Below the pieces are notes generated by a model that saw only the letters and a program-made list of their open reading frames with translations, did no database searches and was not told where the DNA came from. From a virus, in IMG/VR virus record IMGVR_UViG_3300047994_000035, positions 1 through 36,725 of that record: a stretch of DNA of 36,725 bases. One strand, 5' to 3'. Position 1 is the stretch's first letter, and every line of letters begins with the position of its first letter. Positions 329 through 23,655 of this stretch are shown one piece after another. The translations under genes and the position numbers were made by a program.

Positions 329-569
329 CCGCCCCCTCCCCGGCTGGCCGCGCGGCATGCACTTGGAACTGGCCGCGTCCTATGTCGGCCTGTCCGTCGG
401 GTCGATCGCCAATGAACGCAAAGCCGGACGCTTCCCCGAGCCGGTCAGCCTGACGCGGGGCCGGATCGTCTGGCTGCGGGAGGACCTGGACGCCTGGCTC
501 GACCGCAAAGCGGGCAAGGCCGCGCCAGAGGACGCCGTTGCAGGGGACGGGTCCGAATGGGTAGCGTGA
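321..569 (+). CDS. AlpA/excisionase-like helix-turn-helix DNA-binding protein
   Basis: This 82-residue protein looks like the MerR/AlpA-type winged helix-turn-helix group used as recombination directionality factors or phage activators. An N-terminal helix-turn-helix (about residues 16-40, AASYVGLSVGSIANERKAGR) is followed by the FPEPVSL and GRIVWLREDLDAWL pattern, in which a short beta wing leads into a helix. That ending is characteristic of AlpA-like proteins. It overlaps the upstream Cys-rich gene by 8 bases and the integrase start by 13 bases, so excisionase-like protein and integrase are made from one message. The expected role is to bind the attachment region and bias integrase toward excision, or to control int. 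This role is inferred from fold and position. Confidence 0.8.
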   Translation: MPDRPLPGWPRGMHLELAASYVGLSVGSIANERKAGRFPEPVSLTRGRIVWLREDLDAWLDRKAGKAAPEDAVAGDGSEWVA

Positions 570-1714
570 CGTTCATGCCGCCAGCCAAGCCGCCGCCCTA
601 TGTGTTTTGCCCGAAAGGCGGCAGCGGCCGACGGTACACCTATTACCGACGCAACGGTGTCCGCACCAAGCTGCCCGATCAGGATGACCCAGGCTTCTAT
701 GCCGCCTATGCCGCCATCCACGAAGCCGCGGAAGCAAAGTCCACCGCAGCCGCCCCGCCAATCGCCGCGGATGCACCGGGCAGCCTCGCGACCCTGATCG
801 CCGCCTACAAGGCCTCCGAAGAGTGGCGTGGCCTCGCGAAAGGCACGAAGCGGGATTATGACAAGGCGCTGGAGCCGCTGCGCACGCAGTACGGACGCTT
901 CACCGTCGCCACCATGCCGCGGAAATTCGTGCTCGATCTGCGGGACAAATACGCGCGCAAGACGGTCCCTGCCAAAGCGCCGGATGGCGTGGCGATCGTG
1001 GGCCAGGATGGCGCACCCGCCATGACGGAGATCGCCACGCCCCGCCGGGCGAACCACATGGTCAACGTGCTGCGGCTGCTGATGAGCTGGGCCGTCGATC
1101 GCGGTTGGCGCAAGGATAACCCAGCGCTGCGGGCCGGCCGGCTGCGGACCGGCCCGGGCTTCAAGCGCTGGACGGACGAGGCGTTCGCCGCCTTCATGGC
1201 ATCTGACGCCGTCTCTGAGCCGATGAAGCGCGCCGCGGCGCTCGGCATCTACACCGGCCAACGGAAGGGCGATTGCCTGACCATGACGCGATCGGCGCGC
1301 AAAGGCGGGGTGATCGAGGTTGTCCCCGCAAAGACGAAGGATACCACCGGCGTGCGGCTGGAAATCCCGGAACACCCGGACCTGACCCGCATCCTGGACG
1401 CGGCGCCGAAAAGCGACGCGCTGACGCTGCTGACCCGGGCCGACGGCCACCCATGGCGGGAGGACAATTTCAATCACCTGTTTGCCGCCGCGATCAAGGC
1501 CGCAGGGCTCACCGGCCTGTCGTTTCATGGTTTGCGCAAGGCCGCCAGCGCCAGGCTGGCCGAAGCGGGTTCCACCGATTCGGAGATCGACGCCGTGCTC
1601 GGCCACTCCGACCCGAAGATGACCCGGCTCTACCGGCGGCAGGCCGACCAGCGCATCCAGGCGAAAGCGGCCATCACCAAGCTGGTTCAGAAGGGCGGGA
1701 AGAACGGCTCATAA
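557..1714 (+). CDS. int: Tyrosine site-specific integrase
   Basis: The 385-residue protein has the layout of phage tyrosine recombinases. An N-terminal arm-binding-type region (about 1-70) is followed by a SAM-like core-binding domain (about 75-185) and a catalytic domain (about 200-370). The catalytic set is visible: Arg236 in YTGQRKGD, Lys259 in PAKTKD, His324 and Arg327 in FHGLRKA, His350 in LGHSDP and the nucleophile Tyr359 in MTRLYRRQ. The gene points at the attachment core, which begins about 70 bp beyond its stop, as expected for an integrase using the adjacent attP. It overlaps the AlpA-like gene. It should catalyse strand exchange between the phage tRNA-Met 3' core and the host tRNA gene. 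All key residues are present, so it is probably active. Confidence 0.96.
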   Translation: MGSVTFMPPAKPPPYVFCPKGGSGRRYTYYRRNGVRTKLPDQDDPGFYAAYAAIHEAAEAKSTAAAPPIAADAPGSLATLIAAYKASEEWRGLAKGTKRDYDKALEPLRTQYGRFTVATMPRKFVLDLRDKYARKTVPAKAPDGVAIVGQDGAPAMTEIATPRRANHMVNVLRLLMSWAVDRGWRKDNPALRAGRLRTGPGFKRWTDEAFAAFMASDAVSEPMKRAAALGIYTGQRKGDCLTMTRSARKGGVIEVVPAKTKDTTGVRLEIPEHPDLTRILDAAPKSDALTLLTRADGHPWREDNFNHLFAAAIKAAGLTGLSFHGLRKAASARLAEAGSTDSEIDAVLGHSDPKMTRLYRRQADQRIQAKAAITKLVQKGGKNGS

Positions 1715-10655: not shown

Positions 10656-11425
10656 AATGCGTTGATCGTCTGCACGCCGGACCCAGCCAGCGCGCCTACG
10701 GCCGAGCCGCCCGCCGCGACGCCCGCCGCAGAGACGGTGCTGGTCAGCCCAAGGGCCGTGGTGGCGCCGCCGATCACGGTCAAGCCTGCTGAAGCGGTGG
10801 ACGCTGCCGCCGTGGCAATCCCGGCCACCGTGCCCAGCCCCGCGCTCACCGCGGCCAGCCCGGGCACGCCGGGCAGCACCGCGCCGATGCGCTGCAGATC
10901 GTCCTGCGCCGTCGCCAGTGCATCGCTCGCCGCGCCGATCTGCGCCGTCAGTCCGGACACGCCCAGCGCGTCGCCGATCTGGTCGAGCAGCGACTCCTTG
11001 ACCGAGGCATCCGGCGGCGGCGGCAGCGGCACGCGCTCGCACGTCACGCTGTAGCGGATTTGGTTGAAGCCTTCGTCGAGCCTGCAATCCGTGAGCACCA
11101 CGCGCAGGCTGGTGCTGCCCCAAAGCAGGGTCATCGGCTGGCCCGCCACGCGCAGCCCGTCCAGCAGCCGCGCCCGCCTTTTGGCGGAGCCGCCCAGGAA
11201 GGTGCCGGACCAGGTGACCGGCGCATCGTCGGGGCCGGTGACATCCATCACCCGCGCGCCGCCGGGCAGCTTGTGCAGTTTGTTGGCCTGCGCCCCGCCG
11301 GACTGGATGCGCTCCGGGACCTCGAAGGCCAGGAAGCGGAACGGCCCGAGCTGCACCGGCGCACCGGCAAGGAACGTGGCGGCGCTGTTCAGGCCGGACC
11401 CCACCGCGGACAGCGCGCCGCTCAT
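10652..11425 (-). CDS. Tail/baseplate assembly protein of the Mu gp43 (DNA-circularisation N-terminal) type
   Basis: The N-terminal half of this 257-residue protein (FRFLAFEVPERIQSGGAQANKL, about 28-49, then KLPGGARVMDVTGPDDAPVTW) is a beta-rich domain of the kind found directly after tape-measure genes in Mu-like and related phages. About 60-130 continues with TWSGTFLGG and SLRVVLTDCRLDEGFNQIRY. The C-terminal half (150-257) is a long Ala/Gly/Ser/Thr-rich region that looks helical and hydrophobic. It overlaps both neighbours by ATGA. Gene order (tape measure, this gene, X-like, gp44-like) supports a role in connecting tail tube and baseplate hub. The exact function is unproven. Confidence 0.75.
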   Translation of the reverse strand: MSGALSAVGSGLNSAATFLAGAPVQLGPFRFLAFEVPERIQSGGAQANKLHKLPGGARVMDVTGPDDAPVTWSGTFLGGSAKRRARLLDGLRVAGQPMTLLWGSTSLRVVLTDCRLDEGFNQIRYSVTCERVPLPPPPDASVKESLLDQIGDALGVSGLTAQIGAASDALATAQDDLQRIGAVLPGVPGLAAVSAGLGTVAGIATAAASTASAGLTVIGGATTALGLTSTVSAAGVAAGGSAVGALAGSGVQTINAL

Positions 11426-13800
11426 GGCAGCCCCATGCCGGGCCAGGGATTGACCCGCACATCCGGCCCGCTGGTGCCCGTGCCGGCCGCACCGCCGATG
11501 CCGCGGGCGATCACGTTGCCGACCTTCTGGCCGTCCAGATTGACCGTGCCGTTCAACTGGATCGGCTTGTTCCGATCGGGCAGCGCCGGGTAGCGGGGCG
11601 CCGCACTCATCCAGGAGCCATTCGGATCGGCCCAGGTGCTGCGGTCGAAGATGCTGAATTTGTCGTCGGCCTGCTGCGCCCGCTTATACCAGTCATGCCT
11701 GCTATCGCGCTGGCCGTCCGTCTCGCCGAGCAGTCCATGCACGCCGTCGCCCAGCTTGCCGGCAAGATAGTCGAAGCCGCTATGCAGCGCCGTGCCGGCG
11801 GCGTAGGCGCCGAGCGCCACCAGGCTCAGACGGGCCGCAGTGGCAGCGCCTGCCATCGCAACCCCGAACATCGTGACGTTCCCGGACATAGCCGCCGCCT
11901 CGGCGCCTGCCAGCCATTGGAACGTCTTGATCATCGGCCCAGCGAACCCGAACACCAGCGACGCCGCGCCGACCGCCAGCGACAAGGCGCCCAGCGCCTC
12001 GGCCGTCTTGACCATCAGCCCGGCGGTGCCGGGGTTGCGCTCCGCCCAGGCGCTCATCGCATTCAGCGCGCCGGTGATATCCTTCACGACGCCGACCGCC
12101 GCCCCCATCACCGGGCCGCCCAGCGCCACCATCAGCCCGTTGACCGCCGCCTCCATCTCCTGGAAGCGCAGTTTCGGGTCGCCATCGACGCGCTCCTTGA
12201 ACGCATCCCGCTCGCCGCCGCCGGCGATGGCGTCGCGGTCGCGCTTGAGCAGCAGATAGTTGCGGATCACATCGCCGATCAGCGCGCCGCCCGGGATGCG
12301 CGAGGCCAGTTGCTGCGCCGTCGCCATGCGCTGGCCCCGCAAAGCGTCGGGATCGGTGGCCAGGCCGCCATGCATGGCGTCGTAACGGTCTATGAACGGC
12401 AGCATCGTCTTTTCGATGAACTCGTACGGGTGGAGCTGCGCCTCGCGCGCATCCGGCAGCACGTTCTGCGGAAAGCGGAATTGCCCGATGCCGGTGTGGA
12501 AATCGATCAGTTGAGGATAGATGCCTTTCCTGCGCTTATAGGCCCGATCTTCATCGGTGATCTCGCGCAGGTGCAGCATCCCGCCTTCCAGCAGCATGTT
12601 CGCTGCCGCCTCGCTCATTTTCCCGGATGCCATCTGCATGGAGAAGCCTTGCAGCGCCGTGCCCGCCTTGGCTGCGCCCATCGACAGGATCGGCATGATG
12701 CTGTCCGCGAACAGCGCCGGGTCAGCCAGCATCGCGCCGGCGGCGTTGCTTGATTTCAGGAATTGCAGGATTTCCGCCGGCCCCACCCGCCCGCCGGTCT
12801 GCACCGTCGTCACTTCGACGTTGCGCAGGAATTTCATCAGCCCGGCGGGATCGATCTCGCCATCCGGGCCTGACAGCGCGCCGCGCAATTCGCCCGCCTG
12901 GATCGCCTTGAACAGATTGCCGATGGCGTCGCCCTTGCCGGCGCTCTGCAGCACGATGGCGGTCTGCGCCATCGCCTTCAGCGCGTCGGGGTTGAGCGCC
13001 TCCTCCGGCTTCTGCAGCAGGCTCATCACGTCCTGGATCATGTGCAGGCCGCCGCCGATCGTCATGCCCGGCACGTTGCGCTGCAGATCGATCGCCTGAT
13101 CGAGTGCCCGCGCCGCCTGCGCCGCGCTGAAGCCCATCGTGCGCAGGCCGGATTGCGCGTGCTCGACCTCGGCCCGCGCCTTCACCACGCTATCGACGAA
13201 TTCGGTCACGGCCGCGCCGACCATGCCGAGGCCGAGGCCGGTCTGCATGAACTCGCTGCTGCTCGGCCGCTCCGGGGGCGCCTTGTAATTCAGCGGGATG
13301 CCCGGCGCGCCGAGCGGGATCTGGAACGGCATCACGCCGCGCCCGGGCGTCGTCAGAGGACCAGCCCCCACTGCCCCGGGACCACCCGGCGGCACATACA
13401 GCGCTGGAAGCTGCGGCGCTGCAGCCGGTGGCGTTGCCCGCGGGCCGCCCCGCGCCGCCGCGTTCGCAGCCGCCGCGGCCGCTGCCGCAGCGCCTGCCGC
13501 GCCGCCAGACGGGATATCCGTCACCGCCCGGTTGAGCGCCCGCGCCGACTCCGCCGCGCGCGCCTGCGCCTGGTGCAGCCGCTCCATCGTCGCCGCCAAA
13601 GTCCGGATGCCCGGCTCGGCCCGCGCGATGCCGCGCAACTGGCTGCCCAGCGTCGTGGCGTTGGACTGCGCGCTCTTGATGATCTTATCGAGCGCCTCGA
13701 ACTGCCGGATCAGCCCCGGCAACGCGGAATTAACGTTGGTTTCCAGGAACAGCGATACACCGATGCGATAGGCTTCGATCAATGGACCGCTCCCCCGCAT
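11422..13800 (-). CDS. Tail tape measure protein
   Basis: This is the longest gene of the tail module (792 residues), placed after the tube and chaperone genes, as tape measures are. It has an N-terminal helical region (about 25-90, GLIRQFEALDKIIKSAQSNA), an Ala-run linker (about 100-130), a long helical body and hydrophobic stretches near 600-690 (LGALSLAVGAASLVFGFAGP and RLSLVALGAYAAGTAL). The role is to set tail length and probably to help DNA entry. The ATG at 13800 lacks a good ribosome site. A TTG at 13782 has GGGGGAG about 7 bases upstream and may be the true start. The ATG overlaps the start codon of the divergent nuclease gene. Confidence 0.93.
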   Translation of the reverse strand: MRGSGPLIEAYRIGVSLFLETNVNSALPGLIRQFEALDKIIKSAQSNATTLGSQLRGIARAEPGIRTLAATMERLHQAQARAAESARALNRAVTDIPSGGAAGAAAAAAAAANAAARGGPRATPPAAAPQLPALYVPPGGPGAVGAGPLTTPGRGVMPFQIPLGAPGIPLNYKAPPERPSSSEFMQTGLGLGMVGAAVTEFVDSVVKARAEVEHAQSGLRTMGFSAAQAARALDQAIDLQRNVPGMTIGGGLHMIQDVMSLLQKPEEALNPDALKAMAQTAIVLQSAGKGDAIGNLFKAIQAGELRGALSGPDGEIDPAGLMKFLRNVEVTTVQTGGRVGPAEILQFLKSSNAAGAMLADPALFADSIMPILSMGAAKAGTALQGFSMQMASGKMSEAAANMLLEGGMLHLREITDEDRAYKRRKGIYPQLIDFHTGIGQFRFPQNVLPDAREAQLHPYEFIEKTMLPFIDRYDAMHGGLATDPDALRGQRMATAQQLASRIPGGALIGDVIRNYLLLKRDRDAIAGGGERDAFKERVDGDPKLRFQEMEAAVNGLMVALGGPVMGAAVGVVKDITGALNAMSAWAERNPGTAGLMVKTAEALGALSLAVGAASLVFGFAGPMIKTFQWLAGAEAAAMSGNVTMFGVAMAGAATAARLSLVALGAYAAGTALHSGFDYLAGKLGDGVHGLLGETDGQRDSRHDWYKRAQQADDKFSIFDRSTWADPNGSWMSAAPRYPALPDRNKPIQLNGTVNLDGQKVGNVIARGIGGAAGTGTSGPDVRVNPWPGMGLP

Positions 13801-14260
13801 GACGCCAAAAGACTACGAACACCACTGCGCCGCCCTGCTACGCGCCGCCGGTTGGCAGGCCCGCGTGGTGGGCCAGTCCGGCGACCAAGGGGCCGACATC
13901 ATCGCCAAGCGCCCCGGCCAGAGCCTGGTTGTCCAGTGCAAGCTGCTGACGGCGCCGGCCGGCAACGCCGCCGTGCAGCAAGTCTGGTCAGCCCAGCGCT
14001 ATTACGGCGCGCCGCACGGGGCCGTCGTGTCCGATAGCGGCTTCACGCCCGCCGCCCGCGCGCTGGCCCGCTCGACCGGCGTGCATCTCTGCCATACCGG
14101 CGCGCTGCTGATCCTGCTCGGGCCGCCGAAGGCCGCCCCGCACCCGACCCATTCGGTACAGTTCTGCCCCTGCGACAAGCTGCTCATCCGGCTGCCTAAA
14201 GGCCGCATCGGCACGGTGCGATGCCCGGATTGCGCGCGCCGCTTCCACGCCGTCGGCTAG
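13799..14260 (+). CDS. Mrr-type restriction-endonuclease-like protein with C-terminal zinc ribbon
   Basis: This 153-residue protein lies on the strand opposite the whole late operon. Residues 5-108 match the Mrr_cat (PD-(D/E)xK) pattern: YEHHCAALLRAAGWQ, then GDQGADIIAK with Asp33, VVQCKL with Gln46 and Lys48 as the (E/Q)xK pair, and a tail of GAVVSDSGFTPAARALA. Residues 120-151 hold CxC...CPDC (Cys123, 125, 142, 145), resembling a zinc ribbon. The catalytic residues are intact, so a DNA nuclease is likely. Its ATG shares CATG with the tape-measure ATG, and its TAG shares CTAG with the stop of the HK97-gp10-like gene, so it fits the gap exactly. No clear ribosome site or promoter is visible. 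It is probably an independently expressed cargo (moron) gene; defence or superinfection exclusion is inference. Confidence 0.85.
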   Translation: MTPKDYEHHCAALLRAAGWQARVVGQSGDQGADIIAKRPGQSLVVQCKLLTAPAGNAAVQQVWSAQRYYGAPHGAVVSDSGFTPAARALARSTGVHLCHTGALLILLGPPKAAPHPTHSVQFCPCDKLLIRLPKGRIGTVRCPDCARRFHAVG

Positions 14261-14790
14261 TTTTCCGGCGGCTCGCCGGGCGGGCGGTTGGACGGCGGCA
14301 ACCCGGCCAGCGCATGCGCCACGTGACCCGCGATGGTGTTGACCACCCAATCCTGCTTACGGAACGCCGCCGCCCCCAGGAACGAACGGGGCGGGACGCC
14401 ATGCCCCAATTCCTGCACCTCGGCGACCAGCCCGATATTGCGCACCGGATTCTCCCGGCTGCCATCGCCGACTTCGCGGTCCGCCACGCCGATCGCCGCT
14501 TCATGGCCGCTCGCCGTCACCTCGATGCTATCGCGCAGCGTGCCGGTGCGCAGCTCGGGATCGTTCTCGGAAAATCCGAGCCGGACCCGCTCGGCCTTGG
14601 TTTCCTCCGCCAGTTCCGCCCAGGCCGCGAACGGCCCGGCCTCGCCTTGATAGATGCCGATCTCGGCGCGCGCCTCGGTCTGCACGATCTCGGCCGCCAG
14701 CCTCACGCCGTCATGCCCGGCGATCTCGGCCGCCGGGATGCGCGTTTCCAGGAACTCGGCGAATGCACCGATCGAGCCGAAATCACGCAT
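14257..14790 (-). CDS. HK97-gp10-like tail completion / virion morphogenesis protein
   Basis: This 177-residue protein shows the gp10-like pattern: an N-terminal helical half (about 5-75, AEFLETRIPAAEIAGHDGV) and then ELRTGTLRDSIEV (about 80-92), the common R-T-G-x-L-R-x-S-I core. The C-terminal GHGVPPRSFLGAAAFRK (about 128-144) is the PPRxFLG motif typical of these head-tail joining proteins. Its ATG at 14790 sits inside the end of the T frame (stop 14783), with GGGAGCGGGAAG upstream as ribosome site. It usually lies in the neck module; here it is between the tail chaperones and the tape measure. Function is inferred from the motif. Confidence 0.78.
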   Translation of the reverse strand: MRDFGSIGAFAEFLETRIPAAEIAGHDGVRLAAEIVQTEARAEIGIYQGEAGPFAAWAELAEETKAERVRLGFSENDPELRTGTLRDSIEVTASGHEAAIGVADREVGDGSRENPVRNIGLVAEVQELGHGVPPRSFLGAAAFRKQDWVVNTIAGHVAHALAGLPPSNRPPGEPPEN

Positions 14791-15312
14791 CTTCCCGCTC
14801 CCATTCCAGGCGGTCCCAGTTGAACGTCCCGCCCTTCAATTCGCCCAGCGCGATCACCGCGGCAAAGCGCCGGACGGCTGACCATTTCAGCGCCACGTCC
14901 CACGGCACCCCGCCGCCGGCCAGGATCAGCATGTCGAGCAAAGCGGGGTGCCGGCTCAGTTTTTTGCGATGGCCCGCTCGCCGTCTTCGTCTTCGCCGGC
15001 CCGCTCGCCGTCTTCGTCTTCGCCGGCCGGCACGGCGTCGCCATAGAGCTGCTTGCCGGCCGCGGCGATGCCGTCATGGCCGACCAGCACGGCGTTGCGG
15101 CGGATCGCCGTCTTGGTGGACGCCACCGGCACCGGCACGCCGTCGATGCTCGCGACCGAGGCGATGATCAGCGCGTATTGCATCCACACCTTGTTGTCGG
15201 CGGCGGACCCGGCCGCCTCCATCAGATCCATCATCTGCGCCGGGTCGACCACCTGCAATTGCAGCACCCGCCCGCGCGCATCCGTGACGGTCATGTCGGC
15301 AGCATCGCTCAT
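14783..15312 (-). CDS. Tail assembly chaperone GT, made by -1 frameshift
   Basis: If ribosomes slip back one base at 14959-14965, the G protein continues for 58 more residues in the -1 frame, ending at the TGA at 14785-14783. The fusion is about 176 residues. The extension begins LSRHPALLDMLILAGGGVPW and continues with WSAVRRFAAVIALGELKGG. It is open throughout, has high GC at third positions, and resembles the T part of GT chaperones in tailed phages. Its stop overlaps the next gene's start, as in the rest of this operon. GT proteins bind the tape measure and recruit tube subunits. The frameshift is inferred from sequence; no independent start exists for the T part. Confidence 0.85.
14956..15312 (-). 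CDS. Tail assembly chaperone G
   Basis: This is the zero-frame product of the G/GT pair, 118 residues from the ATG at 15312, whose ATGA overlaps the tube-protein stop. About 22-90 (VVDPAQMMDLMEAAGSAADN, KVWMQYALIIASVASIDGVP) is the helical chaperone domain. The C-terminus is acidic and contains a perfect tandem repeat of GEDEDGERA, then AIAKN. The stop codon directly follows the slippery heptamer, so most ribosomes end here and a minority make GT. Together the two proteins should coat the tape measure before tube polymerisation. Confidence 0.88.
   Translation of the reverse strand: MSDAADMTVTDARGRVLQLQVVDPAQMMDLMEAAGSAADNKVWMQYALIIASVASIDGVPVPVASTKTAIRRNAVLVGHDGIAAAGKQLYGDAVPAGEDEDGERAGEDEDGERAIAKN
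14959..14965 (-). promoter_or_regulatory. Programmed -1 ribosomal frameshift site A AAA AAC
   Basis: On the minus strand the G reading frame ends GCA AAA AAC TGA. This contains A AAA AAC in exactly the X XXY YYZ phase needed for a -1 slip, with the zero-frame stop as the next codon. The -1 frame then stays open for 58 codons with T-like sequence. This is the classic arrangement of tail G/GT genes. Confidence 0.85.
14971..15024 (-). repeat. Perfect 27-bp tandem duplication in the chaperone gene
   Basis: Two identical 27-bp units (14971-14997 and 14998-15024) stand head to tail, just upstream of the slippery site on the message. They encode the doubled GEDEDGERA peptide. Being an exact multiple of three, the duplication keeps the frame. 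It lengthens the acidic linker between the G domain and the frameshift point. Confidence 0.85.
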
Positions 15313-15764
15313 ACCTGGCGCCTCCGCCCGGCTTCGAATTCGAGCGTCTGCTTCACGAACGCGTCGCCTTTCCACGTGCCGGCATTGCCCAGCGTGATCG
15401 TCACGTTGTCGAAGACATAGGTGGTGGTGCTGCCATCCGTCTCGGTGATGTATTGATACAGCATCCCCGTCATATACAGGCCGGTCGTGTACCAGGCCGT
15501 CTCTTCCACGGCGATCACGTTTTCCAGCGCGTTGGAGCCGCGTTCCAACCCGAAGCTGCCATTCCAGCCCATCGGCAGAGCGGCGCGCATGATCACGCCG
15601 TCGAGCCGGTTGGATTTCAGCTTCGTCTTCTCTTGCTTGGCGTCGAAATCGGTCACGTTGGGCATGTCCACCCGCGTGGTGACGCCGGTGCCGGTGCCCA
15701 TGAGCAGCACCAGCGACACGTCGCGCCCGACAGACGCCTTGGCGCTGCTATTGATGACAGGCAT
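15309..15764 (-). CDS. Tail tube protein
   Basis: This 151-residue protein directly follows the sheath gene (4-base gap) and precedes the chaperones, the standard place for the tube. It is beta-rich: MGTGTGVTTRVDMPNVTDFD, a middle with LKSNRLDGVIMRAALPMGWNGSF (about 53-75) and a C-terminus TYVFDNVTITLGNAGTWKGD. The phrase on mutating a background and looking at the effect on the GSFGLERG region matches Mu-like tube proteins in style. It should polymerise into the inner tube around the tape measure. Identity rests mainly on gene order, size and beta content. Confidence 0.85.
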   Translation of the reverse strand: MPVINSSAKASVGRDVSLVLLMGTGTGVTTRVDMPNVTDFDAKQEKTKLKSNRLDGVIMRAALPMGWNGSFGLERGSNALENVIAVEETAWYTTGLYMTGMLYQYITETDGSTTTYVFDNVTITLGNAGTWKGDAFVKQTLEFEAGRRRQV

Positions 15765-15768
15765 CTAT

Positions 15769-17328
15769 CTAGCTCCCCACTTGCCCGGACGGCGTGGTCT
15801 GTTTGGCCACCGTCACCGTCTGCCCGCCCTCGATGTTGGCGATGAATTTCTCGTTGATCGCCTGGTACTGCACCTGGCAATCCGCCTGCACGTAGCCGAG
15901 CGAGGTACGGGTGAAGGGATTGTTGCTGGTGTCGCAGATCACGCCGAAGGGCAGCGAGCCATCCAGCGTGCCCAGCAGCCCCTGGCCCAGCAGGTTCTGG
16001 AAGAAGCCCAGCAACGTCGCGCGGATGCGCTGGAATAGCGTGGAATTGACCACCTGCCCGACATAGGCCCCCATCCCCGCCGCGATCGTCGCCGCGATGT
16101 AGTTGGTCATGCGGGTGTAGTTGTCGCCGTTCGTCGCCGCGTTGCTGGACGAGTTGTGCCCGCAGCGCACGCCCCAATAGGCGCCCCCGGGTTGCGGGTT
16201 GGAAATCACGTCGATCCCCGCCTGAAACAGCGTCTGCAATTCGACCGACGCATAAGTCGTCGCCGCCGACGCGCCGGGCAGGCCGGATTTCTGCGAACCC
16301 GCGATGCTGTAAAGCTGCTTGTTCAGGCTGCTGTTCTGCGGCGAAAGATTGCCTAAGCGGCCCGCCACGAAACCTTGCGGCGACACCAGGCGCAGGACCT
16401 GATTGACCGGATCATTCCAGTAAATCCAGTCGCCGAACATGTGCTTGACGGCATAGCTGTCGAGCCCCGCCGTCGCCTTGGCCGTGACCGCGTTGGCGAT
16501 GGTATCCCCGGCGGGCGTCACGGTGATCATATAGACGCCTTCAGACAGGCCGAACGCCGCCTGAGTCGTCCACTGCGTCGCGTCGTCGGCGTCGGCCAGC
16601 AACCCGATGGAACAGCCCTGGCCGCGCAGCGCATACATGCCCGTCCGCGGCGTCGTGTCCGCGCCGATCAGCACGGCGGCCGTCAACGTGGTCACGCCAT
16701 CCGTGCCGCCGGTCAGGCTGTAAGTCGCAGCCGCCGGCGTCGTGGCGCCCACGCCAGCCGTGGCGGTGATCAGCAGCGAAGGCGGGCGCAGAATGCCGTT
16801 GCCGGTGTTGATCGCCGCGGCCAGCGCCACCCAGAACGCGTTCCCGCTTCCGGCGATGTTGTTGTAGACCTCGGGCGTCCGCCCGGGCAGCCCTACCACC
16901 GCCTGCCAGGTATTGGCCTTCGACCCGGCGCTGATCGCCACGGTGATCGAATTGCCCAGCGTGCCGGTATACTTGGCGGTGAAGGTGATGCAGTTGGTCA
17001 GCGCCGTCACCGTCGCCGCCACGTCCGTGCCATCGGTCACGCGGACGCATTTGAAGGCGGAGGCACCCTGCTGCACCGCGGTGGCCACCTGGGTGCCCAT
17101 GTCGTATTTGCGGTTCTGGATGGCGCCGAAGGCCAGCGCGTAATCGCCCATCGCCGAGCAGATGACCGGCTGATTGACCGGCCCCCATTGCGCCGTGCCC
17201 ACCACGCCGATGACGTTGGTCGGCACCCCGTTCAACACCAGGTTCTGCGGCGGCACGATCTGGACATAGAGATCGGGCACCACAAGCGCCGTGGTGTTGA
17301 GCGCGCCTTGCTGGGTGATCTGCGCCAT
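15769..17328 (-). CDS. Tail sheath protein (Mu gpL-like)
   Basis: This 519-residue protein has sheath features. The N-terminus NLVLNGVPTNVIGVVGTAQWGPVNQP (about 30-55) is the G-x-x-G-T-A-x-x-G-P-V segment that begins most phage sheath proteins, followed by SAMGDYALAFG. The middle (about 110-230) carries an inserted beta domain with KYTGTLGNSITVAIS and SLTGGTDGV. The C-terminal half contains DWIYWNDPV, SPQGFVAGRLG and helical segments, with RTSLGYVQADCQVQYQAINEKFIAN near the end forming the inter-subunit linking strand. It contracts to drive the tube through the envelope. The preceding DUF2635-like gene agrees with a Mu-type arrangement. Confidence 0.95.
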   Translation of the reverse strand: MAQITQQGALNTTALVVPDLYVQIVPPQNLVLNGVPTNVIGVVGTAQWGPVNQPVICSAMGDYALAFGAIQNRKYDMGTQVATAVQQGASAFKCVRVTDGTDVAATVTALTNCITFTAKYTGTLGNSITVAISAGSKANTWQAVVGLPGRTPEVYNNIAGSGNAFWVALAAAINTGNGILRPPSLLITATAGVGATTPAAATYSLTGGTDGVTTLTAAVLIGADTTPRTGMYALRGQGCSIGLLADADDATQWTTQAAFGLSEGVYMITVTPAGDTIANAVTAKATAGLDSYAVKHMFGDWIYWNDPVNQVLRLVSPQGFVAGRLGNLSPQNSSLNKQLYSIAGSQKSGLPGASAATTYASVELQTLFQAGIDVISNPQPGGAYWGVRCGHNSSSNAATNGDNYTRMTNYIAATIAAGMGAYVGQVVNSTLFQRIRATLLGFFQNLLGQGLLGTLDGSLPFGVICDTSNNPFTRTSLGYVQADCQVQYQAINEKFIANIEGGQTVTVAKQTTPSGQVGS

Positions 17329-18963: not shown

Positions 18964-19385
18964 CAGACGACGAAGGAGACGCCGCCCTCGCCCAGGCCTG
19001 GACCGGGCGGGATGCCGAAGAAACGGCAGAGGCGTCGGCACCATTGATCCAAGAGCTTCGAGCGGTCGCGCACTTCGTTCCTGTTGTGGACCCACACCGC
19101 GGCGCTGTCCGTATCAAGGTTTGCGCTCGCCGACGCAACCGCCCCTTCCAAGGCATAGAGCCCAGGCACCGTGCCGCTGCCATTAAGGAAAAACCGCATC
19201 ACCTGCAGCTCCTCCGGCCTGGCGTTGGTCATCTTGTATTCGAGCACGCCATAGGCCTGGTAAAACCGGTCGCCGACGAAGCCCGCATTGCCCGGGCCGT
19301 ACATGTCATACCCCGCGTAACGCCTGATATCGGCCCGCTCCCCATCCGCCAGCGCCGCCGTGGACAGGCCGGCGGTGAAGCTCAC
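18963..19385 (-). CDS. Head-tail connector (adaptor) candidate
   Basis: A GTG at 19385 overlaps the TGA of the upstream esterase gene (GTGA) and gives 140 residues. The sequence LSTAALADGERADIRRYAGYDMYG (about 6-29) is a helical start frequent in alphaproteobacterial phage neck proteins. Helices around VLEYKMTNARPEELQVMRFFL and RSKLLDQWCRRLCRFFGIPP follow. Small all-helical proteins in this place usually bind the portal base. Function is inferred from position and predicted helices. Confidence 0.7.
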   Translation of the reverse strand: MSFTAGLSTAALADGERADIRRYAGYDMYGPGNAGFVGDRFYQAYGVLEYKMTNARPEELQVMRFFLNGSGTVPGLYALEGAVASASANLDTDSAAVWVHNRNEVRDRSKLLDQWCRRLCRFFGIPPGPGLGEGGVSFVV

Positions 19386-21535
19386 GGCGCCACCATCTGC
19401 GCCACCGGCACCGTCGCCGACAGCGCCGCGTAATCCGCCTGCGTCGGGTGCGTCCCGTCGATCGAGTAATAATACGCCGTGCTCGCATTGAACGGCCAAT
19501 AGCCGCCGTTCAGCGTCAGCGTGCCCGCCGCGTTGATCTCGATCGCCCCCGCCGGATCGAACACCCCCGCCAGCGGATGCCCCGCTTGGCCCGCCACAAT
19601 CGCCCCCGTCGTGCCGGGGCTGACCGGCGTATACACCCCGGCCCAGGTCGCGATCTGCGCCGCCGTGCCGCTCACCGTCACCGGGCACCCCGCCCGCACC
19701 CACGTGTTATACCCCGCCCGCACCGCCTCCACCGCCGGGCGCTGCAGCATCGCGGTCAGCGTCGTATACGTGCCATTCCCCGCCACCGGCAGGGTCAGCC
19801 CGGCATCGGTGAACAACTCGAACGTGTTGGTGCTGATCGCCCCGATATAGAACGTGCCGTTCATCGCCGTGTTGCCGACGCCGCCTTGCAGCGTCACGGA
19901 GGCGCCGTTGGCGAACCCCGACGCATATGACCCGGACAGCGTGAGCACCATCGGCGACGCATTGGTCGCCGATGCGATCAGCATCCCGCCCGGCGCCTGG
20001 TTGGCCGTGCTTTTCAGGCTGTCATTCGTCACCACCCGCGGCAGCAGCGTGGCCTTCCAGATGCGGGGGTAGATCGTCCCCGCCGGGCCGCGCTTGCGCC
20101 ATTCCGCCCAGCGCACCAAATCCTGGGCCTGGACCGTCGCCAGCGACGACGGCGAACCCTGCGTCACCCCGCCGATGCTGATATCGTTGGTGTTGCCCTC
20201 ATCGATGATGTCGCTGACCGCCGCCGCGTTCAGCATGCGGTTGCGCGCCAGCGGCTGCACCCAGTCATACATATAGGCGCCCAGCCGGCAGCGGTCGAAA
20301 TACGGAATACCGGCCGTCATCAGCGCGCCCATGATGAAACCGCGGTCGTAAATATCCCCCGTGCCGGCGCAGATGCTATCCCCCGCCGTCATCACCACGG
20401 CCAGGTCCAGCCCGGCATCCGGGGTGGCCTCGATCTCGGTCGGCCCATACATCAGGTTATTGGTGCCGGACGCCTCCCACGCCGTGCCGGACGTGGTCAA
20501 CTGGTTGCTGGCATTACCCCCGGCGGACACGTAATTGCTGTTCTGTCCGGCCGGCAAAGACGGCCCGGCCGTCACGGCCGTTCCCTGGCTGCTGGGCCCC
20601 AGCGGATAGGTCGGCACCGTCACCCCGGAGGCATATTGCGTGGGCGACAGCGGCGACACCTGCGCCCCCGTATCGGTCCATGTCGTCGTGTTCGGCTGCG
20701 CTGGGATTTGCGTAAACAAATCAGCACCGCCCCCCGCGCCGCGGTAGATGTTATACGCGGTGGGCTGCGTCGCCGTGCCCAGCGCCCCGGCAGGCGCGGT
20801 AATGACCAGTTGCACGCTGGACGTGCTGCCGGTGGTGGTCACGGCTTGGTTGGCCGCCACGGCACTTTCCCCCGCAGCGCCGCCCACGGCGCTCACGCGG
20901 TAGTTGTAGGTATTGGCCGCCAGCGTGCCGCCCGTGCTGGACCCGGCAGCGGAGAAGCTGGGTGTCTTCATCGTCTGCAGGAAGGTCCGCACGCAGACAG
21001 CCGTGCTGGCCGGCACGCTGATGCCAACGGGGTCCGTCAAAACCTCGGAGAGCGGCGGAATGCTCACCGTGGCGGGCGGATTGATGGTGCTGGATGAGCT
21101 GCCCGTAATCCCGGTGCCAGCCGTCCCGTAGGTGAGTGGGATAAAGGTGTTGGCCGGGTATTCCAGCACGGCGGAGAGCGTCACGGGATAGATCGGCGCG
21201 TATTGGCCGCCGCTATATTCGCCCACCCCGCTATCGATGACATTCTTGAACCGGACCCGCAAATCATGCACGGCGCCCGCCGTGGTGAAGCACACCCGGC
21301 TGGTGCCGCCAATATCCGTGGTGCCGTTGGACGTGCCCGTGTTCATCCAACGCCCGCCCAGCAGCGGCACGCCGATCGTGCGGGACGGGTAGGGGCTATT
21401 AAAGGCGTTCATCGTATTCAGCACGCCATGGGCATTCAGCGGCGCCGCGCCGGACGCCTGGCCCAAATTGCCCTGCGCCAGCGCCAGGCTGGGCAGCAGC
21501 GCCAGCAGCGCGGCGCGGATCATCGCGCGGATCAT
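19382..21535 (-). CDS. Secreted-type SGNH/GDSL esterase with Fn3- and fibre-like domains
   Basis: The start is taken at the ATG at 21535 (ATGA overlap with the upstream gene), giving 717 residues. The N-terminus MIRAMIRAALLALLPSLALA is a Sec-type signal peptide, with cleavage near 20-21. After a beta region, about 191-300 looks like a fibronectin-III domain (NTYNYRVSAVGGAAGESA, YNIYRGAGGG). The SGNH hydrolase signature follows: GDS at 385-387, GNTND at 447-451 and DGTHP at 693-697, with Ser387, Asn450, Asp693 and His696 as likely active-site residues. An E1_FCCH-like beta insert lies near 520-590 (TNASPMVLTLSGSYASGFAN). It could remove acyl groups from surface polysaccharide. A signal peptide and a place between capsid and neck genes are unusual for such a protein. 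Confidence 0.85.
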   Translation of the reverse strand: MIRAMIRAALLALLPSLALAQGNLGQASGAAPLNAHGVLNTMNAFNSPYPSRTIGVPLLGGRWMNTGTSNGTTDIGGTSRVCFTTAGAVHDLRVRFKNVIDSGVGEYSGGQYAPIYPVTLSAVLEYPANTFIPLTYGTAGTGITGSSSSTINPPATVSIPPLSEVLTDPVGISVPASTAVCVRTFLQTMKTPSFSAAGSSTGGTLAANTYNYRVSAVGGAAGESAVAANQAVTTTGSTSSVQLVITAPAGALGTATQPTAYNIYRGAGGGADLFTQIPAQPNTTTWTDTGAQVSPLSPTQYASGVTVPTYPLGPSSQGTAVTAGPSLPAGQNSNYVSAGGNASNQLTTSGTAWEASGTNNLMYGPTEIEATPDAGLDLAVVMTAGDSICAGTGDIYDRGFIMGALMTAGIPYFDRCRLGAYMYDWVQPLARNRMLNAAAVSDIIDEGNTNDISIGGVTQGSPSSLATVQAQDLVRWAEWRKRGPAGTIYPRIWKATLLPRVVTNDSLKSTANQAPGGMLIASATNASPMVLTLSGSYASGFANGASVTLQGGVGNTAMNGTFYIGAISTNTFELFTDAGLTLPVAGNGTYTTLTAMLQRPAVEAVRAGYNTWVRAGCPVTVSGTAAQIATWAGVYTPVSPGTTGAIVAGQAGHPLAGVFDPAGAIEINAAGTLTLNGGYWPFNASTAYYYSIDGTHPTQADYAALSATVPVAQMVAP

Positions 21536-23655
21536 TGCAGTTCCTCCGTGGTGTCGGCCCGCGCCAGGCAATGCACCGTGTCGGTGTTGCCGGCCGGCGG
21601 GGTCCAGGTCACGCCCAAGCCTTGGTCGGTGGTGTCCGCCGCCAGCAGCAGCGTCATGCCGGTCAGCGTGCCGCCGGACCGGCTGGGCGCCGTCGCGGTC
21701 AAATAGCCGCCGCTATAGCTCGCATTGCCCGTGGCGCCCCGGTCCAGGTCGCTGCTCACCGCATCCCAGGACGCCCAGCCCGCCGCCGTGGTGTCCCGGC
21801 AGGACGCGGAAATGCGCAAATGGTAATGCGTGGACGCGGGGATGTTGCCGACGTTATACGCGCCGGCCGCGGCCCCGTCCGACGTGCCGGTGATCGCCGA
21901 CGCACTGGCGCCAGACCCGCGCAACTGCAGCCAGCCCATCTGCGCATCGCCGGCGGTCGCGAACTTGCCGCCGGCATAGACGAACTTGCCATTCGTGCCG
22001 CGGTCGGTGGACGACGTGCCGAACGCATAGCCGGACACGCCCGCCGCCGTGTCGCCCAGCCCGCAGGACACCGAATACTGCCCGTAGGACAGGTTAAAGC
22101 CGCCACACAGCACGGTCGAGCGGTAGCCGGACGCCACGTTCTGCGTGCCGCCGGTGATGATGGCCTCTTGGTTGGTCGCCTTGTTGCTGTCGCCGCCGGC
22201 GATCGTGGCATTAGCCCCCGTCGCGGTATGCTGCGTGCTGGTGCGCGAGCCGACGCCGTTCTGCAAATCCACCGCGCCCACGCCGGCCGCCACCGGGATC
22301 ACGGCGCCCACATAGGGGATGATCCCGCCCACCGCCGGGCTGCCGAAATTGCGCAGCGGCGCCAACATGAAGCTGGTGGCGGTCGGGTCCACCGCGTAGC
22401 TCCACCCGGTTTCCGCGCCATTGCCGTCAAACAGCAAATTGGTGCTGGTCTGCGCGTTGGACGCGACCGTCACTTGTGTCCCCGTGGTGGCGATGCCGGA
22501 CAGGCGGAACGACATCGAGCGCCCCCAAGTCACGCCCACGCCCATGCCCGGCCCGGTCCCGATCAGCCCGTTGACATTGATGTTGTAGGGCATCGTGGCG
22601 TAGCTGGCCGCCGTGGTTTCCAGCGCGTAATAGCCGGCATAGGGGTTGATCAGTTCCAGCCCGAAAAATTGCAGATTGGCCACCGTGCCCAATTGGACCG
22701 GATCGCCGATCTGCAGCAGGTCGCCGGCAATGGCGGGGGACGGCGCATTGGCGCCCTCGATCCGCAGGCCATGCACCAGGAAGTTGCGCAACTGCATCCC
22801 CGTGCCGCCGCGGATCACGAAGCCCGGGCCGTTCGGCGCGAAGATGTTCATGTCGTTGATGTCGATCTCGTTCGTGCTGTCGCCGGACCCGGCGACGCTG
22901 TTGAACTCGACCGCCGGGACGCCCGCTGCCCCCGCCGTGAAAATGCGGACATTGTCGAACACGCTCTCGCGCATATAGCCTTGGCCGGAGACGTATTTCG
23001 ACACGCCGGAATACAGCGCCCGGCCATTGATGGTGGAAATGTTGACATCGCGCACCAGCACGAAATCGTCGCGGTCATAGAACACCATCGCGTTTTGCTG
23101 GCTGCTGGCCGCGGTGTTGCCGGTGATGGCAATGTCGCGGAAAATCGCGTTGGCCTTCTGCACCGTCGCCAGGGTCGATCCGGTCTGCTGCGGGTAGTTG
23201 GGTCCCATCCAGGCTTCGGACCAGGAAAACAAATCGCCCGCGTAGCCCGTGCCCATGGCCACGAAGGATTTAGCCGGCCCATCGCCGATGACGCAGCCCG
23301 GCCCGCGGAACGTGGGCAGCGCGGTGGCAGAAATCAGCGATGTGCCCGCCGGCATGTAGATGCAGGGGAAATACCCCGCCGCCATGTCGGTATTGACGGC
23401 ATTGATCGCCGCCGCCCAGGCGGCGCTGTCATCGGTCACGCCATCAAGCTTGGCGTTATACGGCGCATCCTTGATGTTGATGCGGTCCTGCGCGCGGGCG
23501 TCTTCCGTCCGCCCTAGAACCGTCCCGGTATCGAGCGCCGTGCCGGGCGTGAACCCGCCGGAGCCGCCGGAGCCGAGATATTCGTAGAGCGGCCCGGCCT
23601 GCGCCGAAGCCGCCAGAAACACCGCCAGCAGCAGGGCGGGAATGAAGCGCTTCAA
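21532..23655 (-). CDS. Signal-peptide-bearing beta-helix / YadA-head-like fibre protein
   Basis: This 707-residue protein begins MKRFIPALLLAVFLAASAQA, a clear Sec signal peptide (cleavage near 20-21), then a Gly-rich linker. About 59-400 has tailspike features: NAKLDGVTDDSAAWAAAINA is the pectate-lyase-3-type opening, followed by rung-like repeats. About 460-560 carries a YadA-head-like series (ANATIAGGDSNKATNQEAII, TGGTQNVASGYRSTVLCGG, GLGDTAAGVSGYAFGTSS) resembling the left-handed beta roll of trimeric adhesins. A C-terminal beta domain ends TTEELQ. ATGA overlaps tie it to both neighbours. It is probably a trimeric surface fibre, on the virion or on the lysogen surface. The receptor or substrate is unknown. 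Confidence 0.82.
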   Translation of the reverse strand: MKRFIPALLLAVFLAASAQAGPLYEYLGSGGSGGFTPGTALDTGTVLGRTEDARAQDRINIKDAPYNAKLDGVTDDSAAWAAAINAVNTDMAAGYFPCIYMPAGTSLISATALPTFRGPGCVIGDGPAKSFVAMGTGYAGDLFSWSEAWMGPNYPQQTGSTLATVQKANAIFRDIAITGNTAASSQQNAMVFYDRDDFVLVRDVNISTINGRALYSGVSKYVSGQGYMRESVFDNVRIFTAGAAGVPAVEFNSVAGSGDSTNEIDINDMNIFAPNGPGFVIRGGTGMQLRNFLVHGLRIEGANAPSPAIAGDLLQIGDPVQLGTVANLQFFGLELINPYAGYYALETTAASYATMPYNINVNGLIGTGPGMGVGVTWGRSMSFRLSGIATTGTQVTVASNAQTSTNLLFDGNGAETGWSYAVDPTATSFMLAPLRNFGSPAVGGIIPYVGAVIPVAAGVGAVDLQNGVGSRTSTQHTATGANATIAGGDSNKATNQEAIITGGTQNVASGYRSTVLCGGFNLSYGQYSVSCGLGDTAAGVSGYAFGTSSTDRGTNGKFVYAGGKFATAGDAQMGWLQLRGSGASASAITGTSDGAAAGAYNVGNIPASTHYHLRISASCRDTTAAGWASWDAVSSDLDRGATGNASYSGGYLTATAPSRSGGTLTGMTLLLAADTTDQGLGVTWTPPAGNTDTVHCLARADTTEELQ

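Follow-up and report, generated by a model that had tools for sequence, protein, structure and literature searches.

In phage P22, the immI/sieA region (mnt-arc-ant and sieA) is located between the late genes 16 and 9 (PMC8022706). According to Rousset et al. (2022, PMC9122126), the antiviral hotspots of P2 and P4 adjoin cos, the one of P2 being flanked by the replication and portal genes, and the hotspots of other phages are found between cI and the integrase gene or elsewhere. Morons, such as those coding for Ltp-type exclusion lipoproteins, are accessory genes of temperate phages and can exclude other phages (PMC3952083). The present analysis concerns a virus record of IMG/VR, 36,725 bases long (IMGVR_UViG_3300047994_000035, the whole of which is called here the window), in which a gene coding for an Mrr-type nuclease lies, antisense, between the gp10-like gene and the tape-measure gene (TMP) of the tail operon. 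The locus comprises the following features:

13799 to 14260, plus strand: Mrr_cat nuclease with a C-terminal zinc ribbon, 153 aa, the cargo of the slot (Pfam, alignment, structural model, codon likelihood)
13799 to 14113, plus strand: Mrr_cat (PD-QxK) core, residues 1-105 (invariant E7, D33, Q46 and K48; Pfam; alignment; model)
14150 to 14257, plus strand: zinc-ribbon-like tail, CPC-D...CPDC, residues 118-153 (model; CPSC...CPCC in the L177 homologue)
14257 to 14260, no strand assigned: CTAG stop-stop overlap of the nuclease and gp10-like genes (sequence; also in L177)
11422 to 13800, minus strand: TMP gene, probable start 13782, anchor on the 3' side of the slot (phrog_28, E 1.6e-8; TMP profile of the slot phages)
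13780 to 13796, minus strand: probable true TMP start, TTG at 13782-13780 with GGGGGAG at 13796-13790 (sequence; N-termini of relatives)
14257 to 14790, minus strand: gp10-like/Neck1 tail-completion gene, anchor on the 5' side of the slot (phrog_26, E 1.1e-4)

The gp10/TMP junction and its occupants

The gp10 gene was searched in genomes of the Acetobacteraceae family and at the order level, and the junctions were then read. In the resulting tally, which includes the window, L001, L149 and the Komagataeibacter phage phiKX1 and from which L291 and L293 were left out, 19 junctions are closed, 14 carry a small insert of less than 1.3 kb (window, L001, L149, L169, L174, L175, L176, L177, L182, L276, L279, L282, L285 and L289) and five a long mixed insert (L171, L172, L277, L278 and L283; in L171, L278 and L283, TMP falls outside the stretch taken). 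Homologues of the gp10-like gene, 35-54% identical, adjoin TMP in many prophages, and the two genes are 16 bp apart in phiKX1. About 17 of the IMG/VR relatives found by their sheath and showing both genes have a closed junction, some apparent negative gaps being due to alternative starts; another of these relatives, L149, has an occupied one. Thus, phiKX1 and about 35 relatives have gp10 and TMP abutting and lack the extra gene, while other phages have the junction filled; this comparison had been proposed in the initial annotation, and its outcome bears out the view of the nuclease gene as accessory cargo.

Of the 14 small inserts, 13 have their assignable genes antisense to both gp10 and TMP; these 13 come from related sequences and do not represent 13 independent events. 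The L174 insert is ambiguous, with two overlapping antisense open reading frames (ORFs) containing hydrophobic stretches and one sense ORF. The gp10/TMP junction is very likely an accessory antisense slot with varied occupants, and this recurrence of the site itself is the main point that was absent from the initial annotation. In the open-access literature (subscription papers lying outside the search), neither the gp10/TMP slot nor a gene for prophage exclusion of Mrr type within a tail operon was found described, and the junction is not mentioned in the consulted parts of the phiKX1 paper (PMC8566455); the antisense slot is apparently undescribed so far.

Five distinct phages carry an antisense Mrr nuclease in the junction, so that an oddity specific to the window can be ruled out. 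Besides the window protein, these are L177 (= L185; Mrr and ribbon, 177 aa, 51% identical over residues 2-149 to the window protein and with the same CTAG overlap), L001 (one N-terminal hydrophobic segment followed by Mrr, 178 aa from the ATG), L175 (= L191; hydrophobic N-terminus and Mrr, 196 aa) and L282 (167 aa, Mrr_cat 9.2e-14). An Mrr homologue was detected in 79 of 398 genomes, mostly within longer open frames away from the gp10/TMP junction. In a tree of the Mrr core the slot copies are scattered among bacterial copies, and a single clade of slot nucleases is not rejected by the AU (approximately unbiased) test (p 0.144); independent capture of the slot nucleases appears likely.

The other small inserts are of diverse content. 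L176 codes for an antisense protein that resembles phosphoribosyltransferases and weakly matches ShosT (2.8e-4), L182, L276 and L285 for antisense proteins whose N-termini appear, by eye, signal-like, lipoprotein-like or hydrophobic, L289 for a 63-aa membrane ORF and L149 for an antisense membrane ORF of 116 aa. In L279, HicB (2.4e-20) and HicA (3.4e-11) are both antisense; the complete pair occupies positions 1864-2480 of this prophage sequence, between gp10, there on the plus strand, and TMP. The codon likelihood of the cargo of other slots is mixed and was not used for orientation there, because several homology-supported genes, such as the L282 Mrr, fail to score as native coding.

Other phages have HicBA or a protein resembling ShosT in this slot. 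This would fit a window nuclease of the abortive-infection or toxin type, killing the lysogen upon infection by another phage, and so would its lack of an obvious self/non-self domain. Nevertheless, the window slot holds the nuclease gene alone, with neither antitoxin nor sensor gene, and we regard this explanation as quite unlikely.

A second recurrent occupant, with the motif DDGGTPxWR, was found in L149, L169, L172, L276, L277 and L278 as antisense genes whose products share this acidic motif and a C-terminal hydrophobic helix. No convincing match to it was obtained in Pfam, PHROGs or PADLOC, and it is, judging from its sequences, an undescribed membrane-protein family. Scanning IMG/VR with this family alone gave ten loci (L296-L305), two of which seem to be repeats, L296 of L172 and L301 of L277. 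All ten are opposite the TMP and/or the gp10 gene and all ten have a strongly hydrophobic stretch; as the flanking genes were not used in the query, the scan confirms the slot independently. A loose DNA pattern for DDGGTPxxW gave six matches in 300 genomes, three of them beside TMP; for the other three, the short stretch read matched neither TMP nor gp10 and, with so loose a pattern, they may be due to chance.

By analogy of position, the slot is comparable to P22 immI, being also a variable region within a late operon, and the long inserts contain Arc and antirepressor-type genes (Rha in L172, KilAC antirepressor in L277, Arc together with DUF3800 in L278, KilA-N in L283). It differs from P22 immI in that it belongs to Acetobacteraceae myophages, has gp10-like and TMP genes as anchors, and receives small inserts made of a single antisense unit with Mrr nucleases among the occupants; moreover, the window slot contains no Arc/Mnt-type repressor or antirepressor genes. 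In behaviour, the closest precedent would be the P2/P4 antiviral hotspot (PMC9122126). Both are small loci of high turnover between conserved phage genes, with nucleases and toxin-type genes, and cargo turnover between two conserved genes was indeed observed here; the gp10/TMP slot, however, lies between tail genes and its cargo is mostly of about 60-280 aa and antisense to the late operon. As for morons such as HK97 gp15 and the Ltp-type genes, the slot nuclease is likewise accessory in a temperate phage and absent from close relatives, between genes that adjoin there, but the window cargo is a nuclease and not a membrane protein, neither a promoter nor a terminator was found for it, and its G+C by codon position resembles that of TMP and gp10, without the atypical composition expected of a moron.

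The Mrr_cat nuclease of the window

The plus-strand ORF of 153 codons at 13799-14260, antisense in the tail operon, corresponds exactly to the earlier description. Its frame is the sole positive one of six in codon likelihood (+0.25 bit per codon, the others ranging from -0.18 to -1.28) and has a G+C content at third codon positions of 0.88, which argues against a chance antisense ORF; the latter is ruled out by the codon likelihood, the invariant catalytic residues and the homologues. The ATG is the only in-frame start past the upstream stop, as read from the sequence.

Pfam Mrr_cat (PF04471) spans residues 1-104 (E 8.5e-23, 81 bits for a cut-off of 21). In the alignment of 33 homologues, E7, G28, D29, G31, D33, Q46 and K48 are invariant, in agreement with the proposal of Asp33, Gln46 and Lys48 as catalytic residues; their loss across homologues, which had been named as a refuting observation, did not appear. 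The structure prediction and homologue search that had been called for gave an Mrr_cat nuclease fold and related proteins. The AlphaFold2 model (pLDDT, the predicted local distance difference test score, of 88.1) shows, in its nuclease part, the succession helix-strand-strand-strand-helix-strand-helix-strand, and Foldseek comparison of the model with the PDB retrieved AF1548, MspJI, EndoMS and Hjc at E < 1e-3 and AspBHI at 1.5e-3. The predicted structure thus has the PD-(D/E)xK fold.

Such nucleases are common in phage genomes, and the resemblance of the fold to Hjc and EndoMS besides restriction enzymes could indicate that the protein serves the lytic cycle of the phage itself, in host-DNA breakdown, in recombination (Hjc- or EndoMS-like) or in repair. 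This role is unlikely, since the nuclease is missing at the same junction in most relatives, where unrelated genes are found instead, its gene is antisense to the late transcript and its homologues match best the restriction-type families.

With Mrr and the type IV restriction enzymes the window protein shares the PD-QxK Mrr_cat core and the fold. It differs from them by a C-terminal zinc ribbon in place of an N-terminal winged-helix or recognition domain: Mrr_cat starts at residue 1, leaving no N-terminal modification-sensing domain, and the Pfam scan revealed Mrr_cat and the ribbon only, without winged-helix, SRA or PUA domain. The modification dependence that had been suggested for this nuclease thus finds no supporting domain. 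The Mrr core is matched by the C-terminal parts of the PADLOC proteins PDC-S02 (E 1.3e-9) and ZorD (E 1.4e-14), but these proteins are of about 330 and 1070 aa and only their C-terminal 100 or so of 334 or 1071 positions are matched, the window protein being made of the nuclease part and the ribbon.

In the model, the C-terminal part adopts a zinc-ribbon fold with putative zinc binding, formed by four strands (E118-122, E129-133, E138-141 and E148-151) mostly at pLDDT 86-93. The homologue at the same site of prophage L177 has the canonical CPSC...CPCC. The CxC/CPDC ribbon of the initial annotation is thus recovered as a predicted fold, but it is not essential: two of the five slot nucleases possess it and three do not, two of the latter having N-terminal hydrophobic segments. 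Longer bacterial proteins in L226 (G397:C439) and L227 (G113:C79) end in Mrr_cat followed by a CxxC...CxxC ribbon, and the fusion therefore exists outside phages too.

The nuclease gene had been described as fitting between its neighbours without a spare base. On the stop side this is correct, the CTAG shared with the gp10-like gene being real at 14257-14260 and recurring in L177. On the start side the fit is doubtful. The TMPs of relatives begin 0-2 residues ahead of a (V/I)EAY-like motif (MSMVEAYRVG, MSVEAYQIA, MTVEAYKIG) and, because these N-termini align there, the window TMP has its probable start at TTG 13782, with GGGGGAG ahead of it at a 7-nt spacing, and not at ATG 13800. The CATG common to the nuclease and TMP starts is therefore probably incidental, and about 16 bp are left between the two, carrying the TMP ribosome-binding site.

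Possible function of the slot cargo

These data lead us to favour, as a reasonably probable explanation, that the gp10/TMP junction is a late-operon slot for superinfection or defence genes expressed by the lysogen, the window cargo cutting incoming phage DNA. This explanation is based on the intact nuclease gene, its antisense position, the recurrent slot, the variable cargo and the temperate genome. It is supported by the other antisense occupants, HicBA, the ShosT-like phosphoribosyltransferase and the membrane proteins, which are typical defence or immunity cargo, by the immunity-type regulators Arc, Rha, KilA-N and KilAC of the long inserts, by the match of the Mrr domain to the Mrr part of ZorD and PDC-S02, known or candidate defence proteins, and by the precedent of P22 immI/sieA within a late operon (PMC8022706). 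For the window nuclease in particular, an anti-phage role appears somewhat more likely than not.

In this mechanism, the small inserts would be cargo genes whose reading direction opposes that of the late transcript. In the lysogen, where the late operon should be silent, the slot gene would be transcribed from its own promoter, situated inside the TMP gene, and the nuclease would cut the incoming DNA of competing phages; the ribbon, or the membrane segment in the sister phages, may provide contact with DNA or placement at the entry site. During lytic growth, late transcription of the opposite strand would run through the nuclease gene and oppose its expression.

Several observations weigh against this explanation. 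Near the nuclease gene, neither a terminator nor a sigma-70-like promoter was found, though promoters of alphaproteobacteria may escape such a search; upstream of the slot genes, promoter scores are not significantly different from those of empty-slot controls (p 0.086). Neither a domain nor a partner gene accounts for the sparing of self-DNA. The first zinc knuckle of the window protein, CPC-D in place of CxxC, is atypical when compared with the canonical L177 homologue. Finally, known-defence matches are few among the other cargo and the one to ShosT is weak.

The great diversity of the occupants, the junctions left empty in many relatives and the absence of an evident promoter are also what would be expected if the junction simply tolerated insertions sparing the late operon, with neutral or selfish cargo devoid of an immunity role. 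This view seems very doubtful to us: the catalytic residues are invariant, Mrr is present five times in the slot and the DDGGTPxWR family only there, and mere tolerance gives no reason to expect 13 antisense cases among 14 small inserts. A more specialized version of the immunity slot, which can be advanced only tentatively, is a dedicated antisense superinfection-exclusion locus coupled to TMP, whose cargo (membrane family, anchored Mrr or ribbon-Mrr) would block the DNA entry of related phages and be co-inherited with the TMP allele that it spares.

Whether late transcription holds the cargo back in lytic growth, as proposed above, can be tested directly. The two anchor genes and the antisense gap provide a handle by which candidate anti-phage genes may be harvested from alphaproteobacterial prophages, with those of the acetic acid bacteria used for vinegar within reach. 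The slot would also add to P22 a second, unrelated lineage with an immunity region lodged within the late operon, and an undescribed membrane family, DDGGTPxWR, is named.

The phage and its relatives

Two further genes characterize the phage of the window:

15769 to 17328, minus strand: tail sheath gene, marking a myovirus (phrog_23, E 9.5e-49; DNA match to phiKX1/2)
557 to 1714, plus strand: tyrosine-type integrase gene, marking a temperate phage (phrog_1, E 3.8e-35)

Because of these sheath and integrase genes, the window is assigned by sequence to a temperate myovirus, and its host probably belongs to the acetic-acid-type bacteria. The Komagataeibacter phages phiKX1 and phiKX2 are its closest named relatives at the DNA level. 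Many metagenomic phages have a sheath about 70% identical to that of the window, whereas peptide-pattern searches of IMG/VR with the window TMP or gp10 gave no relatives, which suggests a strong mosaicism across positions 11422-17328. Between the capsid and sheath genes, at 19382-23655, two ORFs of about 700 aa each were observed, one of them with a weak pectate-lyase-like match (PF12708) below the cut-off; these are possibly genes for spikes or depolymerases, unusually placed.
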